64,000 nucleotides of DNA from Castellaniella sp. Its GTDB lineage: Bacteria; Pseudomonadota; Gammaproteobacteria; Burkholderiales; Burkholderiaceae_B. Shown piece by piece: positions 6,618-28,267 of the stretch (its first letter is position 1; every line of letters starts with the position of its first letter). Under the pieces are notes generated by a model, which had not been told where the DNA came from, did no database searches, and saw only the letters and a list, made by a program, of their open reading frames with translations. A program made the position numbers and the translations under genes. The DNA lies in the NCBI RefSeq assembly GCF_004321985.1, contig NZ_SCQN01000039.1, positions 62,001 to 126,000 of the forward strand. Reading direction: 5' to 3'.

Positions 6618-7460
6618 ATGGATTCAATCACTGCCGCATTCGCTCTTGACGACGTGCTCGCGCGCAGCGCACGCCTGGTGCGCCGCGCACAGCAGCTCCC
6701 GCCGGCAGGCGCCCGGCCCGTGACGATTTCAGGCCGCGTCGGGGGCTGGATTGCGCCGCGTGCACTCGAGGCCATCCGGGCGTTGCCGGGCGTGGATGTG
6801 GAAGACGAAGCCGTTCACATCCGCGCTGTTTCGACCCGTGGGCTGGGGCTGGAGGCCGTGCTGCAGGGTGTGGCGCAAACGCTGCAGGAGGCCGGTTGCA
6901 TTCGCTCCTGGCGCGACGAGCGGGTGGACGTGGTGGCCGAGGGCCGCTGCTTTTCGCGGATCGAGCGCGGCGCTACGCGGCCGCTGGGGCTGCTCACGCA
7001 GGCCGTGCATCTGAATGCCTGGGCGCCGGACGGGCGGCTGTGGGTGGCCCGCCGTTCGCTCACCAAGCCGACCGACCCGGGGTTGTGGGATACGCTCTCC
7101 GGTGGGTTGGTCGCGGCCGGCGAAGACCCGGAGATGGCGCTGCTGCGCGAGACTCACGAAGAGGCCGGCCTGCCGGCCGTGGCGCTCGCAGCCCATGCGC
7201 CGTTGCGCACCGTGGTGCGGATGCACCGCCGGCTGCCCGATGGCTATCAGGTCGAGAACGTGCTGGTCAGCGACTGTGTGCTGGACCCGGGGACGGTTCC
7301 CAGGAACCTGGATGGAGAGGTCATGGAATTCCGGTGCGTGGCGGCCGCGCCGCTGCAGGAACTGCTGGCCCAGGGCGCGTTCACCCTTGAGGCCGAGATC
7401 TGTGTTCTCGACTCGCTGCGTCGCCGGCTTCAGATCCCCTCTGCGGCCGTTTCCCGCTAG
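6618..7460 (+). CDS. Nudix hydrolase with DUF4743 N-terminal domain
   Basis: A 280-aa protein with an N-terminal DUF4743-like region (to about residue 115) and a Nudix domain. The Nudix box GLVAAGEDPEMALLRETHEE followed by AGL fits GX5EX7REUXEEXGU, so it should hydrolyse a nucleoside-diphosphate-linked substrate with Mg2+. The two-domain layout resembles plant/yeast thiamine-diphosphate or NADH-type Nudix proteins; the substrate cannot be told. Start ATG 6618 (MDSITAAFALDD) is preferred to the ORF start at 6561. A TACAAT hexamer ends only 6 nt before the ATG, so the transcript may be nearly leaderless. Confidence 0.88.
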   Translation: MDSITAAFALDDVLARSARLVRRAQQLPPAGARPVTISGRVGGWIAPRALEAIRALPGVDVEDEAVHIRAVSTRGLGLEAVLQGVAQTLQEAGCIRSWRDERVDVVAEGRCFSRIERGATRPLGLLTQAVHLNAWAPDGRLWVARRSLTKPTDPGLWDTLSGGLVAAGEDPEMALLRETHEEAGLPAVALAAHAPLRTVVRMHRRLPDGYQVENVLVSDCVLDPGTVPRNLDGEVMEFRCVAAAPLQELLAQGAFTLEAEICVLDSLRRRLQIPSAAVSR

Positions 7461-23953: not shown

Positions 23954-24126
23954 GACGGATCTCTGCGTCGCACTCAGGCAGACGGCTTCGACCGAAGCGG
24001 TCCGGGCGCGACAAAATCAAGCAGATGATTACATCATAGCCTGGGGTTTTGGGCAAACTTGCTGTAAGTTCGTGTCTGTTTGACGCCTCATGTCCACCGT
24101 CTGACGGATGGTGCAGCAGCGATTCC

Positions 24127-24777
24127 TCAGTCAGTTTGTGGCTGTTCCGACCGAGCGGCCAACAGCTCTAAGCGTCGTCCCGACACGGCAAGAGTTCCTG
24201 CGGCTTGCAGCCGCCTTAAGGCTCGATACAGGGCTTCGTGGGTCAACCCCAGTTCAGTTGCCCAAGCCTTCTTGGCAATTTGTAATTCGATCACTCCCGC
24301 GACTCCCTCGGCCTCGATGTAGTGGACGATCCGTTCTTCTGCGGTTCGTAGGCATAGGCGCTCGCATTGGGCGCGAAGCTTGCGCACTTCATTGGCGAGG
24401 ATGGACTGCCAACGCCTGGAAAAGGCCGAGTCTTCCGTGAGGCTTCTCTTGAATGCCTCTGCGGGGAAGGCCAGCAGGTCGGAGGCGGCCGTCGCCACAG
24501 CGTCGCAGTGGTAGACCTTCGAGTCCAAGCTTGCCTCGGCGATGAACCCTCCGCGGGATCGCTGCAAAGTAACCTCAACTCCTTGGAATCCAATCCTCGC
24601 GAGGCGCACCTCTCCCGACAGCACGAGGAAGGCCGCGCGAACGTGGTCGCCGACGCGAAACAGGCAAGAATCCTGCGCGAGGTGGACCGCACTGGCCTGG
24701 CGCCGCAGTCCCTCGGGAATTGACTGTAAGAGCACTCGCGTGGAGTGCAAGGAGGACTCTGGAACGTTTATTTCCAT
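24127..24777 (-). CDS. Crp/Fnr family transcriptional regulator
   Basis: A 216-aa regulator with an N-terminal cyclic-nucleotide-like beta roll (about 20-110, e.g. FLVLSGEVRLAR), dimerisation helix (LRAQCERLCLRTAEERIVHY) and winged helix. The recognition helix LGLTHEALYRALRRLQ keeps the Glu and Arg that read GA in FNR/CRP sites, while FNR's Ser is Tyr. There is no N-terminal Cys cluster, so it is not an iron-sulfur FNR. ATG 24777 lies inside the palindromic operator; the ORF-track start (24810) is a TTG. No good ribosome site is seen for either. Confidence 0.88.
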   Translation of the reverse strand: MEINVPESSLHSTRVLLQSIPEGLRRQASAVHLAQDSCLFRVGDHVRAAFLVLSGEVRLARIGFQGVEVTLQRSRGGFIAEASLDSKVYHCDAVATAASDLLAFPAEAFKRSLTEDSAFSRRWQSILANEVRKLRAQCERLCLRTAEERIVHYIEAEGVAGVIELQIAKKAWATELGLTHEALYRALRRLQAAGTLAVSGRRLELLAARSEQPQTD

Positions 24778-24794
24778 ATGATTCAAATCATATG
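24775..24794. promoter_or_regulatory. Perfect 9-2-9 palindrome, candidate Crp/Fnr operator
   Basis: CATATGATTCAAATCATATG has 9-bp perfect arms and contains TGAT-N4-ATCA, the core of FNR/ANR/DNR-type sites. It lies between the divergent Crp/Fnr gene and the periplasmic protein gene and overlaps the regulator's start codon. A weak -10 (TAGCAT, 24815-24820) would place the site near -42 for the rightward gene (class II activation) and over the leftward start (autorepression). This is inference from spacing. Confidence 0.75.
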
Positions 24795-24852
24795 CGAATA
24801 ACGAGTGCAAACCCTAGCATTCAGTCTGATAGTCTTAACCCGAGAGAGATTC

Positions 24853-25416
24853 ATGCGCCTGATGATGATCCCCCTGATGCTGGCCGCCGTGGCAACGGCA
24901 TCGCACGCCCAATCGACCGCCAGCCCGACCTCACCCATAGAGGGGATGGATCACATGCACATGGGTCATGCGGCGCACATGGCGGCTATGGCCAAGGCTC
25001 AGCGCCAGCAGCAGGTCTCCGAGCTCGGAAAGGATGTGATGCCGTTCAGCCTCGCGGCGACGTTGCACGTGTTCACCAAGGATGCGGAGGGGGGTGTCCA
25101 GCAAGTGATCGCTCGGGACAAGGCCGACGCCAAGCAGACCAGCTTGATCAGACGGCACTTGCAGGAGATCCGAGAGCAGTTCCTCGCAGGCGACTTCTTG
25201 GGCCCGAGCCATATCCACGGTGCTCAAATGCCAGGGCTCGCCGAACTGTCTGTTGCAAAGCCTGGGCAGATCTCGATTGGCTATGAGGACGTTACTGGCG
25301 GTGCGGAGCTGGCTTACAGGACGTCCGATCCAGCGCTGGTTGTGGCGATCCACAGGTGGTTCGACGCCCAGGTGTCCGACCATGGCAAGGACGCCATGGT
25401 CGGACATGCTCACTAA
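24853..25416 (+). CDS. Periplasmic His/Met-rich protein of unknown function
   Basis: A 187-aa exported protein: signal peptide (LMMIPLMLAAVATASHA), then a short His/Met-rich stretch (MDHMHMGHAAHMAAMAKA), then a conserved-looking domain VMPFSLAATLHVFTKDAEGG...LVRRHL-like helix...HIHGAQMPGL, and a C-terminal HRWFDAQVSDHGKDAMVGHA with more His. The His/Met clusters suggest metal (copper?) binding. As I recall, homologues are sometimes mislabelled aspartate carbamoyltransferase; no such active site is visible. It is divergent from the Crp/Fnr regulator, with the palindrome in its promoter, and convergent with tsdA. Confidence 0.75.
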   Translation: MRLMMIPLMLAAVATASHAQSTASPTSPIEGMDHMHMGHAAHMAAMAKAQRQQQVSELGKDVMPFSLAATLHVFTKDAEGGVQQVIARDKADAKQTSLIRRHLQEIREQFLAGDFLGPSHIHGAQMPGLAELSVAKPGQISIGYEDVTGGAELAYRTSDPALVVAIHRWFDAQVSDHGKDAMVGHAH

Positions 25417-25454
25417 GACAGGGGTCCACTTGTCGCTATCTGAATTGAAGGGGG

Positions 25455-26393
25455 TCAGTTCCCGACTTGCTGCTCGGCCTTGTCGGGCAGTGTGCTGGTC
25501 GAGGGTTTGGAGTGCGCTCCGAGCGTCACGCCATTCACGGTCTGGCCGTATAGGTCATATTTGCCGCCGTGGTGTGCCTTGGTGGTCGCCGCCAGGTTGC
25601 CGGCGAAGTGAGGATCTTGCGGGCGCTCATGTGCGTCGACGAAGTAGGCCACGTCCCAGGCTTCCTGTTCGCTCAGGGTGCCGCCCTGGCTCAGCGGCAT
25701 GTTGGCGTGGATGAAGGCCGCTGCCGTCTTGATGGAATGCATGCCGGCGCCCCAGTTGTAGGAATCATCGCCCCACAGCGCCGGAAACACCGTGTGCTCG
25801 GTGGCGTCCTGCCGGCCCTTGCCCTGGGCGTCGTGACACAGCGCACAGTGTTCGGTGTAGACCTTCTGGCCGCGGACATAATCCGGTGTTTGCTGCGGCT
25901 CAGCCAGTTCGGGAAATCCCTGTCCGGCCAGTTTCACGCCGGTGGGCGCGCCCTTGGCCATCCAGTACATATAGCTTTCGAGGGCCACGATGGTCTTGCT
26001 GTCGGCTGGCGGCATGCGGCCGTTCATGCTGTAGATGAAGCAGCCCTGGAGTCGTTCGGCCAGTGTGTTGACATGGCCGTTCTTCGACCGGTAGGCCGGA
26101 TACAGGACGTACGCTGCCCACAGGGGCGCCGAACCCGCCCGGCGGCCGGCATCCAGGTGGCAGCTCACGCAGGCCATGGAATTCCCGACGTACTGTTTAG
26201 CGAATTTCTGCGGATTCAGAAAGATGTCCTGGCCCCGGCGCACGGCTTCGCCAAACGGGCCGCTGGGAATTGCATCGGCAGCGGGCGGCGTGAAGGCGGG
26301 GACATCCGGTGATGCGGCCCGGGCAGTCCCCAGGGCCAACGCCAACATCAGCGCACTGGCAGCGGCCGCAGCCGGAGTGGGTCGTGTGCTCAT
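25455..26393 (-). CDS. tsdA: Thiosulfate dehydrogenase, diheme cytochrome c (TsdA)
   Basis: Periplasmic diheme enzyme (312 aa) oxidising two thiosulfates to tetrathionate, or the reverse. It has a signal peptide (LMLALALGTARA), an N-terminal domain with CVSCHLDAGRR and LQGCFIYSMNG, in which the Cys is the unusual His/Cys axial ligand of the active-site heme, and a C-terminal cytochrome c domain with CALCHDAQG. APLWAAYVLYPAYR and LYGQTVNGV are TsdA-typical. ATG 26393 overlaps the tsdB stop (ATGA); the ORF-track N-terminus belongs to tsdB in another frame. Confidence 0.9.
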   Translation of the reverse strand: MSTRPTPAAAAASALMLALALGTARAASPDVPAFTPPAADAIPSGPFGEAVRRGQDIFLNPQKFAKQYVGNSMACVSCHLDAGRRAGSAPLWAAYVLYPAYRSKNGHVNTLAERLQGCFIYSMNGRMPPADSKTIVALESYMYWMAKGAPTGVKLAGQGFPELAEPQQTPDYVRGQKVYTEHCALCHDAQGKGRQDATEHTVFPALWGDDSYNWGAGMHSIKTAAAFIHANMPLSQGGTLSEQEAWDVAYFVDAHERPQDPHFAGNLAATTKAHHGGKYDLYGQTVNGVTLGAHSKPSTSTLPDKAEQQVGN

Positions 26394-27088
26394 TGTTTTT
26401 TCGCTCCTTCGAGGGACGTGGCCTGGGGCAGGGCAGAGAAGTAACCGGCGACGGCCGCAATCTGCCCGTCGTTCATGCGCTTGGCGATATTGCCCATCAG
26501 GTTCTGGGGACCCCCTGCGCGCTGGCCTGATCGCCATTGGGTGAACTGCTCGACGATATAGGTCTTGCTCAGGCCCGCAATGGCTGGAAAGTTCGGCACC
26601 ACCCCGATGCCGCCGGCCGCGTGGCATTGGATGCAGGCAGGGATGTCGTGAGCCCAATCGCCGCGATTGGCGATCCAGGCGCCAGTGTCCTGTGCATCGG
26701 GCAGTGTATTGGCCTGTGCCGCGAGCTTGCCGGCGTCCCATGGTGCTGGCAGCGTCCGGATGTAGGCCACGACGGCCTGGCGCTGTTCAGGCGTCAGCGC
26801 ACTGGCGATGGGTTTCATGATCGGATTGGCACGTGTGCCGTCGCTGAACATCTGGAGCTGGGCCGCCAGATAGTTTGCGCCCTGGCCCGCCAGAAATGGG
26901 AAGTTGGCGGCCGCCATGCCTTGCCCCTGGGCCCCGTGACAGGTGATGCACGCCGTGATGCCCGGGCCGCCCTGGGTGAAGATTTGCTTGCCCGCGTCCG
27001 TTGGCGAGGCAGCCTGGGCCAGCCCCGTGCCCAGCAGGGACATGGTGCTGATCCATAACGCACGTCGGTATTTGTTTGAGAAAAACAT
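26390..27088 (-). CDS. tsdB: Diheme cytochrome c, electron partner of TsdA (TsdB)
   Basis: A 232-aa periplasmic cytochrome c4-like protein with two heme domains, CITCHGAQG (about residue 46) and CIQCHAAGG (about 150), and a signal peptide (MSLLGTGLAQAA). In tsdBA operons TsdB takes electrons from TsdA and passes them to the oxidase, here potentially the caa3-type enzyme at the left of the window. It is the first gene of the two-gene operon, directly after a good promoter, and translationally coupled to tsdA. Confidence 0.88.
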   Translation of the reverse strand: MFFSNKYRRALWISTMSLLGTGLAQAASPTDAGKQIFTQGGPGITACITCHGAQGQGMAAANFPFLAGQGANYLAAQLQMFSDGTRANPIMKPIASALTPEQRQAVVAYIRTLPAPWDAGKLAAQANTLPDAQDTGAWIANRGDWAHDIPACIQCHAAGGIGVVPNFPAIAGLSKTYIVEQFTQWRSGQRAGGPQNLMGNIAKRMNDGQIAAVAGYFSALPQATSLEGAKKQ

Positions 27089-27114
27089 GTCCCGTCTCCC
27101 CGTGTGGTTGGGCC

Positions 27115-27144
27115 ATTATCGGACAAGTGGTCCCGCTGCATCAA
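27115..27144 (-). promoter_or_regulatory. Promoter of tsdBA
   Basis: On the minus strand TTGATG, 18 bp, GATAAT, about 27 bp before the tsdB ATG; both hexamers have 4-5 of 6 consensus bases. The region has no TGAT-N4-ATCA palindrome, so direct control by the nearby Crp/Fnr protein is not supported here. Confidence 0.6.
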
Positions 27145-27226
27145 ACATTCGGTGCTGCACTGCTGGGGCGGGTTATCACCCTGGCGGGCGCCAGCCTGGG
27201 CTGCCCAGCCAAGCTGGTGCCGCCGG

Positions 27227-28267
27227 TCAATCCTTGCTCGTGCGGCGGGCGCGTGGGTGTGCCTGATCGTAGGTCGCCGCCAGGTGCTGAAAATCCAGTC
27301 GCGTGTAGATCTGGGTGGTTGAGATGTTGGCGTGGCCCAGGAGTTCCTGGACGGCCCGCAGATCGTGGGCCGATTGCAGCAGGTGGCTGGCGAAACTGTG
27401 GCGCAGGCTGTGGGGATGCACGTGCAGCGGCAGACCGACTTTTTGTGCCAGCGCCTGGAGCTGGAGTTCGACCACGCGCGGGCTGACGCGCCGGCCGCGA
27501 GCACCCAGGAACAGCGCGGCGCGCGTGTCGGCGTCCGGTTCGGGCGGCAGCAGTTGCGCCCGGACTTCCAGCCAGGCCTGGAGCGCAGTGATGGCGTGCC
27601 GCCCCAATGGCACGGTCCGGGTCTTGTGGCCCTTGCCCGTGACGGTGGCTTCGGCCTCGGCGATCTGGATCCAGCTTTGCGAGGCGTATCCCGATTCGCG
27701 CAGCGGTTGCCAGTCCAGGCTGACCAGTTCCGACAGGCGCAGCCCGCTGGAATACAGAACCTCGAACATGGCCATGTCGCGCCGCTCTACGGGCGTCTCG
27801 GCGGGTGGGAGCTGGGTGCGGTCCAGCAGCGCCTGCGCCTGATCGACCGATAGGGCCTTGGGCAGGCTGCGCGGGATCTTGGGGGCGCGCACGCCATGGG
27901 TCGGGTTGCGGGGCAGCCCGGCGGCGGGTGCCCGCCATTCGTAGAAGCTGCGCCAGGCCGAGAGTGCCCGCGCCAGGCTGCGGGGTTCGTGGCCTTGAGC
28001 GTGCAGGCGCGCCAGCGCCTGGCGGATGTGCAGTTCGGACCGCGTGTCCAGCGATTCCCCGGGGAAACAGCCTTGCAGCGCGTGCAGGTCACGCCGGTAC
28101 GCCGCGACGGTGTGCTCTGAGTAGCGTTGTTGTGCGCCGAGTTCCGTCAGCCAGGATTCCACGAGCTGGGCATCGGATGCCATGCCAGTAGGCTGGGCCA
28201 GCGGGTTTGCGGCCGTGCCTTCCGGTGGGTGGCGACGGCCTCTGGTCGGGGTTTCCGGTCCGGACAC
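27227..28267 (-). CDS. xerC: Site-specific tyrosine recombinase XerC
   Basis: Resolves chromosome dimers at dif with XerD (346 aa as drawn). The catalytic set is visible: Arg in SSGLRLSELVSL, Lys in VTGKGHKTRTVP, HPHSLRHSFASHLL, His in LLGHANISTTQ and the nucleophile in IYTRLD. The GTG at 28267 overlaps the upstream stop as TAGTG and has GAGG upstream; an ATG at 28183 (MASDAQLVESWL) would give the usual family length of ~318 aa and is the main alternative. Confidence 0.95.
   Translation of the reverse strand: MSGPETPTRGRRHPPEGTAANPLAQPTGMASDAQLVESWLTELGAQQRYSEHTVAAYRRDLHALQGCFPGESLDTRSELHIRQALARLHAQGHEPRSLARALSAWRSFYEWRAPAAGLPRNPTHGVRAPKIPRSLPKALSVDQAQALLDRTQLPPAETPVERRDMAMFEVLYSSGLRLSELVSLDWQPLRESGYASQSWIQIAEAEATVTGKGHKTRTVPLGRHAITALQAWLEVRAQLLPPEPDADTRAALFLGARGRRVSPRVVELQLQALAQKVGLPLHVHPHSLRHSFASHLLQSAHDLRAVQELLGHANISTTQIYTRLDFQHLAATYDQAHPRARRTSKD

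Follow-up and report, generated by a model that had tools for sequence, protein, structure and literature searches.

A Crp/Fnr-type regulator, its operator and the divergent gene of a His/Met-rich putative secreted protein in Castellaniella

Results

A regulator and its divergent neighbour share a palindromic site

The analysed stretch of DNA (64,000 nucleotides from Castellaniella sp., here called the window) contains the gene of a Crp/Fnr-type regulator and, in divergent orientation, the gene of a small protein, which is referred to as the target. A palindromic operator overlies the start of the regulator gene. The features of the locus are listed in Table 1.

Table 1. Positions of the regulator, the operator, the target gene and their elements in the window
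Feature	Position	Strand	Basis or remark
Crp/Fnr-type regulator, 216 aa	24127..24777	-	ATG at 24777-24775
Recognition helix T179-H180-E181-A182-L183-Y184-R185-A186-L187	24217..24243	-	alignments
Codons of Y89-H90-C91	24505..24513	-	alignments; C91 invariant in the aligned subfamily, His nearly invariant
Operator CATATGATT-CA-AATCATATG	24775..24794	.	9-bp arms, core ATGAT-N4-ATCAT; overlies the regulator start codon
TATGAT in the operator, possible -10 of the regulator's own near-leaderless promoter	24787..24792	-	predicted
-10 of the target promoter, TAGCAT	24815..24820	+	operator centre at -42.5; predicted start at 24827
Target gene, 187-aa putative secreted protein	24853..25416	+	conserved partner in L003 and L010
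Signal-peptide-like N-terminus MRLMMIPLMLAAVATASHA	24853..24909	+	sequence; hydropathy heuristic
His/Met-rich segment GMDHMHMGHAAHMAAM	24943..24990	+	sequence; kept in L003, partly in L010
Conserved domain with invariant His 72, 102, 122, 167 and 177	25036..25386	+	10-sequence alignment

The regulator consists of a cNMP-binding-type domain (PF00027 cNMP_binding, 1.3e-11) and a C-terminal Crp helix-turn-helix (PF13545 HTH_Crp_2, 2.7e-6). Both Pfam matches exceed the cut-off, and this combination defines the Crp/Fnr superfamily. The name FtrB (NCBIfam NF006901) was rejected, as the score of 60.8 bits falls short of the curated cut-off of 211 bits. The nearest solved structure by sequence is that of the heme/NO regulator DNR (E 2.9e-24). 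An AlphaFold model of the regulator, built from two sequences, was poor; Cys91 could not be placed in it and the model was not used.

As the initial annotation had stated, the recognition helix (T-H-E-A-L-Y-R) keeps the Glu and the Arg of FNR and has a Tyr at the position of FNR's Ser. Its second statement on the protein, that there is no Cys set for an Fe-S cluster, also holds: the regulator has four Cys residues (38, 91, 138 and 142), of which only C91 is conserved in the alignments, and the N-terminal Cys cluster that binds the [4Fe-4S] centre of FNR is absent. However, this earlier reading had overlooked that C91 is an invariant pocket residue within a YHC motif. According to a motif alignment, Y89-H90-C91 occupies what we take to be the position of the cAMP-phosphate ligands Arg82-Ser83 of CRP, so that the regulator carries His90-Cys91 instead of these ligands. 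DNR has YVA at the same place.

The site was originally described as a 20-bp perfect palindrome. This is correct for its two 9-bp arms, which are perfect, but not for the central CA of the complete sequence CATATGATTCAAATCATATG, which is not self-complementary. An inverted-repeat search revealed a longer and weaker extension with 16-nt arms that are 88% complementary. The palindrome covers the ATG of the regulator with its left end, as proposed. In the 3.4-Mb genome, the scan for the exact 18-bp form ATATGAT-N4-ATCATAT that had been suggested as a check gave a single occurrence. The core is found at ten places; the seven other matches that were fetched all lie inside open reading frames and have neither the flanks nor a -10 element. 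The regulator is therefore probably a one-target switch in this genome.

The same divergent pair exists in a Curvibacter metagenome-assembled genome (L003; regulator 60%, target 78% identical) and in genome G105 (L010; 58% for both proteins), which confirms the predicted divergent 187-aa protein as a conserved partner. In both loci, the ATG of the regulator is at the same position as in the window, the palindrome overlies it, and ATATGAT-N4-ATCATAT is conserved at the same place.

The operator accompanies homologous regulators

A profile search of the whole phylum, extended by the flanking DNA, yielded about 45 loci with related regulators. These loci (474 kb) contain 40 matches to ATGAT-N4-ATCAT, about 0.2 being expected from base composition, and 38 of the 40 are located at the regulator gene. 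Note that the loci were chosen by similarity to the regulator, that start codons were picked by a script and that shared ancestry was controlled in part. If the partner gene is divergent, the operator lies over or beside the regulator start codon; if it is codirectional, the operator lies mostly 3-18 bp past the regulator stop codon. The motif TTGAT-N4-ATCAA of DNR/NnrR is not used; the site reads ATGAT-N4-ATCAT throughout the loci.

No exact ATGAT-N4-ATCAT site was found at four regulator loci lacking the YHC motif, nor upstream of 17 target-family genes without a linked regulator. Of the exact sites detected in further genomes of this class, one is internal to a glnD-like open reading frame and only the one in G709 is next to such a regulator; the remaining ones have no regulator match within about 1.5 kb. 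In an out-of-sample test with the motif fixed beforehand, three of six plasmid loci contained an exact site and one a site matching in 9 of 10 positions; the operator was absent from the other two.

A further relationship concerns the residue preceding the Glu of the recognition helix (residue 180), which covaries with the base just outside ATGAT. Regulators with Pro180 have a C at this outer position in 20/20 half-sites, whereas a T is found in 47/52 half-sites for other residues; the window, with His180 and a T in both arms, agrees with this rule. The Fisher p value of 2e-13 is overstated, since the loci share ancestry. Such covariation is the pattern that a cognate protein-DNA pair should display.

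The comparison thus shows that regulator and operator belong together, and the proposal of a matched pair has been borne out. Likewise, the argument that an A replaces the first T of FNR's half-site in step with the exchange of Ser for Tyr is upheld by the comparative evidence. That the palindrome arose by chance or serves an FNR/ANR-type protein of this genome is strongly disfavoured, to the point of being scarcely credible: the half-site does differ from that of FNR in a single base, but it is conserved together with its cognate regulator in alpha-, beta- and other Proteobacteria, is absent without the regulator and covaries with the recognition helix.

In Cupriavidus (L039), a regulator-free homologue of the target gene is preceded, at a distance of about 164 bases, by the FNR/DNR-like sequence TTGATTTGCATCAA (TTGAT-N4-ATCAA). 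This gene may be under the control of another Crp/Fnr regulator.

The regulators form a subfamily with exchangeable partners

For this analysis, a YHC subfamily was defined by the invariant pocket Cys (YHC) and a recognition helix of the type ..YR. The regulator of the window has both features (Y89-H90-C91, Y184-R185), which FNR-type outgroups lack, and its gene carries ATGAT-N4-ATCAT with the A of a -10 element about 31 positions from the site centre. The common motif EAS-x(5)-YHC-x-A coincides with the cAMP-phosphate cassette of CRP. Within it, the Cys never varies and the His rarely does; in several members, this Cys is the only one. The recognition helix reads E-x-x-Y-R, or P-x-x-Y-R in one group, and ends in S-R in outgroups of the FNR/DNR type. 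In a maximum-likelihood tree, these outgroups split off on a strongly supported branch, whereas a single clade of all YHC regulators is less well supported. Regulators with the operator occur in alpha-, beta- and other Proteobacteria. Abstracts of the open-access literature yielded no description of the subfamily; the regulator is apparently a case of a widespread Crp/Fnr subfamily that has not been described.

The partner proteins represent several unrelated families, at least four in number. Their clusters, with counts uncorrected for descent, are: a cytochrome c'-like protein with CxxCH (15 loci, mostly from one group of metagenome-assembled genomes), the Spy/Metal_resist family (11 loci; Metal_resist 1e-8 in L067), an unnamed family (10 loci), the family of the window's target (3 loci) and a protein with a heavy-metal-associated domain (1 locus). 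Nearly all have 150-220 residues, a hydrophobic signal-like start, as judged by hydropathy, and a high content of His and often of Met. The type of partner switches several times across the regulator tree. Regulator and operator thus stay together, and the partner is exchanged. In G709 (L076 1539-2171), the regulator homologue is frame-broken and has YHY instead of YHC; the locus retains the operator together with a cytochrome c'-like gene in divergent orientation.

The operator has a fixed distance to the partner promoter

When the promoters are aligned on the operator and read toward the partner gene, an A is found at +31 from the site centre in 35/38 cases (corrected p 1.1e-14) and, after removal of redundancy, in 23/26 cases (corrected p 2.6e-8). 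Position +35 is a T in 24 of the 38 promoters, and all four sites of the out-of-sample plasmid loci have the A at +31. These bases correspond to the -11A and the -7T of a -10 element, so that the operator is centred at -41.5, the position of class II activators. The -10 element (TAGCAT) of the window and of G105 is one base more distant (A at +32 in the window). The resulting centre at -42.5 agrees with the placement near -42 of a rightward promoter in the initial annotation. A sigma-70 scan of the window promoter detected no full promoter and no -35 element. Promoters at which an activator substitutes for the -35 element usually have none; if the operator does so here, the absence of a full sigma-70 promoter is to be expected.

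The comparison shows that the spacing between the operator and the -10 element of the partner is fixed. This layout argues for activation of the target by the regulator rather than repression; taken by themselves, the operator and class II activation are highly probable. Toward the regulator, the effect of binding should be the opposite. In divergent loci, the operator stands where the ribosome-binding (Shine-Dalgarno) site of the regulator would be, and in the window its proximal arm, TATGAT, would be a good -10 element for a transcript starting three bases before the regulator ATG. Binding should consequently shut off the regulator gene, which would amount to autorepression.

The overlap with the start codon could also mean that the regulator represses both genes via the shared site until a metal or another signal relieves repression, and many metal switches are indeed derepression systems. 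Yet a fixed distance of 30.5 bp between the site centre and the -11A in promoters without a -35 element is the layout of a class II activator, and it is kept even where the site lies past the regulator stop codon. A repressor needs no such spacing, which makes dual repression very unlikely.

The target has a conserved His-containing domain

The target has no family in Pfam or NCBIfam, in line with its earlier description as uncharacterised; Metal_resist/LTXXQ (PF13801 or PF07813) was not matched. In ten relatives, the five invariant His residues fall within a compact domain. The AlphaFold2 model has a high-confidence alpha/beta core. A Foldseek search of this model against the PDB gave no fold match with E < 0.1, and a profile search of the PDB sequences with the target gave no match. 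In the window's copy, GMDHMHMGHAAHMAAM follows the signal segment as an addition. The family is sparse, with members in 11/399 genomes of the order.

Relatives in plasmid records are labelled 'aspartate carbamoyltransferase' (L039 4833-5426; L042 4854-5411). This identity was rejected for the target, for which Pfam and NCBIfam contain no ATCase match. The same genome also contains, next to an RND efflux operon, a degraded piece of a target-family gene that includes a stop codon (L070 about 6913-7032; G000:C71:26928-27032). An inverted repeat inside the 3' end of the target gene (25373-25406), with perfectly matching 14-nt arms, a 6-nt loop and no T-run, may form an mRNA hairpin.

Discussion

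The inducing signal

The neighbours of the member loci include, according to annotation and Pfam, heavy-metal P-type ATPases, CusA/CzcA-type RND pumps, DUF411 proteins and multicopper oxidases; further ones are a four-helix copper-binding protein, MerR- and CsoR-type regulators, cation efflux proteins and periplasmic heavy-metal sensors. The approximately 15 loci with a cytochrome c'-like partner, mostly from one group of metagenome-assembled genomes, have ordinary neighbours. Given this metal-gene context, the His/Met-rich products and the Cys/His pair in the pocket, the most economical assumption is that a thiophilic metal, in the first place copper, is the signal. By guilt by association, we infer that the inducer is Cu(I) or another thiophilic metal rather than NO/heme or a redox signal.

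The main rival is a heme/NO-sensing relative of DNR/NnrR, with Cys91/His90 as heme ligands and partners that handle nitrosative or heme stress. It draws on DNR being the closest solved structure, on the cytochrome c'-like partners in 15 loci, cytochromes c' being NO-binding proteins, and on the cytochrome c genes alongside the pair in the window. However, DNR has YVA and lacks YHC, its TTGAT operator is unused here, many members are surrounded by metal-resistance genes, and Spy-like and window-type partners have no link to NO. Moreover, the cytochrome genes of the window are located elsewhere in sister genomes, so that their presence here is incidental. A heme/NO sensor is thus an unlikely candidate.

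Ranked after it, and given only a small chance, is a thiol-redox or sulfur-species sensor, in which oxidation or persulfidation of the invariant pocket Cys would alter DNA binding. One invariant Cys, which is the sole Cys in several members, would fit this proposal, as would one relative near sulfur-transport and rhodanese-type genes. But the adjoining His is almost equally conserved, in keeping with metal ligation; the partners have a high content of His and Met, and metal genes dominate the annotated plasmid loci.

Proposed mechanism

Under the metal-sensing reading, a Crp/Fnr dimer would bind ATGAT-N4-ATCAT. Rightward, it would act as a class II activator at -42.5, where it would stand in for the -35 element and bring RNA polymerase to the target gene. 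Leftward, the same site covers the regulator start codon and probably the regulator's own -10 element, so that the bound dimer would repress its own gene. Induction would likely come from a thiophilic metal, with Cu(I) as the most plausible one, held by Cys91/His90 in place of the cAMP-phosphate ligands of CRP, and the target product would bind metal in the periplasm. We lean slightly toward accepting this reading as a whole, namely that of an autoregulated one-target activator, induced by a thiophilic metal, of a gene for a periplasmic metal-binding protein.

A generalization to the subfamily is more tentative, and doubt prevails over acceptance. It would comprise widespread Crp/Fnr regulators whose cAMP pocket has been turned into a Cys/His metal site for sensing Cu(I) or another thiophilic metal; each copy would activate one exchangeable periplasmic metal-binding protein, with the operator over its own start codon in divergent loci. 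We know of no established copper-sensing branch of Crp/Fnr.

Comparison with known systems

With DNR/NnrR, its best match among solved structures, the regulator shares the Crp/Fnr architecture and the FNR-type half-site spacing; it differs in the pocket (YHC versus YVA), the recognition helix (..YR versus ..SR), the operator (ATGAT-N4-ATCAT versus TTGAT-N4-ATCAA) and its local single target. FNR/ANR has the Glu and Arg of the recognition helix, the TGAT-N4-ATCA core and the class II position near -41.5 in common with it, but the four-Cys Fe-S set is missing here, a Tyr replaces Ser212 and an A replaces the first T of the half-site. CRP is similar in fold and class II layout and dissimilar in having Arg82-Ser83 instead of His-Cys and a half-site spacing of N6 instead of N4. 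The local regulator, shared operator and small metal-handling target resemble the divergent switches of MerR/CueR and CsoR. These work-alikes belong to other protein families and operate by spacer distortion or derepression, not by activation from -41.5.

The target resembles Spy/CpxP-like Metal_resist (LTXXQ) and SilE-like proteins in being small, secreted and His/Met-rich, and Spy/Metal_resist-type proteins are the partners of the same type of regulator in 11 other loci. It matches neither group by sequence and has its own conserved domain with five invariant His residues.

If the proposal is correct, an operator, a promoter layout and effector residues that can be tested would be available for the many regulators annotated just as 'Crp/Fnr family'. 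One switch would connect several small secreted proteins that are so far uncharacterised and include one misnamed as aspartate carbamoyltransferase. Residue 180 and the outer base would provide a natural covariation series for the Crp/Fnr recognition code, and a metal-sensing branch would be a new sensing mode in the family.

History of the locus

None of nine genomes of the same genus has a close relative of the regulator or this stretch, and the three that were aligned have other DNA in the slot between cobW and xerC. Since the pair is absent from sister genomes and the slot is otherwise filled, it looks acquired or replaced. In the window, the cobW-xerC space (24027-27240) is taken up by the pair together with two cytochrome c genes. 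The corresponding space of the sister genome G117 (L162 5144-8515) contains a zur-znuCBA-type zinc-uptake operon; with the ZnuA of this operon as query, the best protein found in the genome of the window is only 28% identical. The neighbours in the window were not used as support, as cobW and the cytochrome genes are not conserved with the pair. In Curvibacter, TniQ-like transposition-associated genes (L003 2929-4068) adjoin the pair, which suggests that it is mobile.
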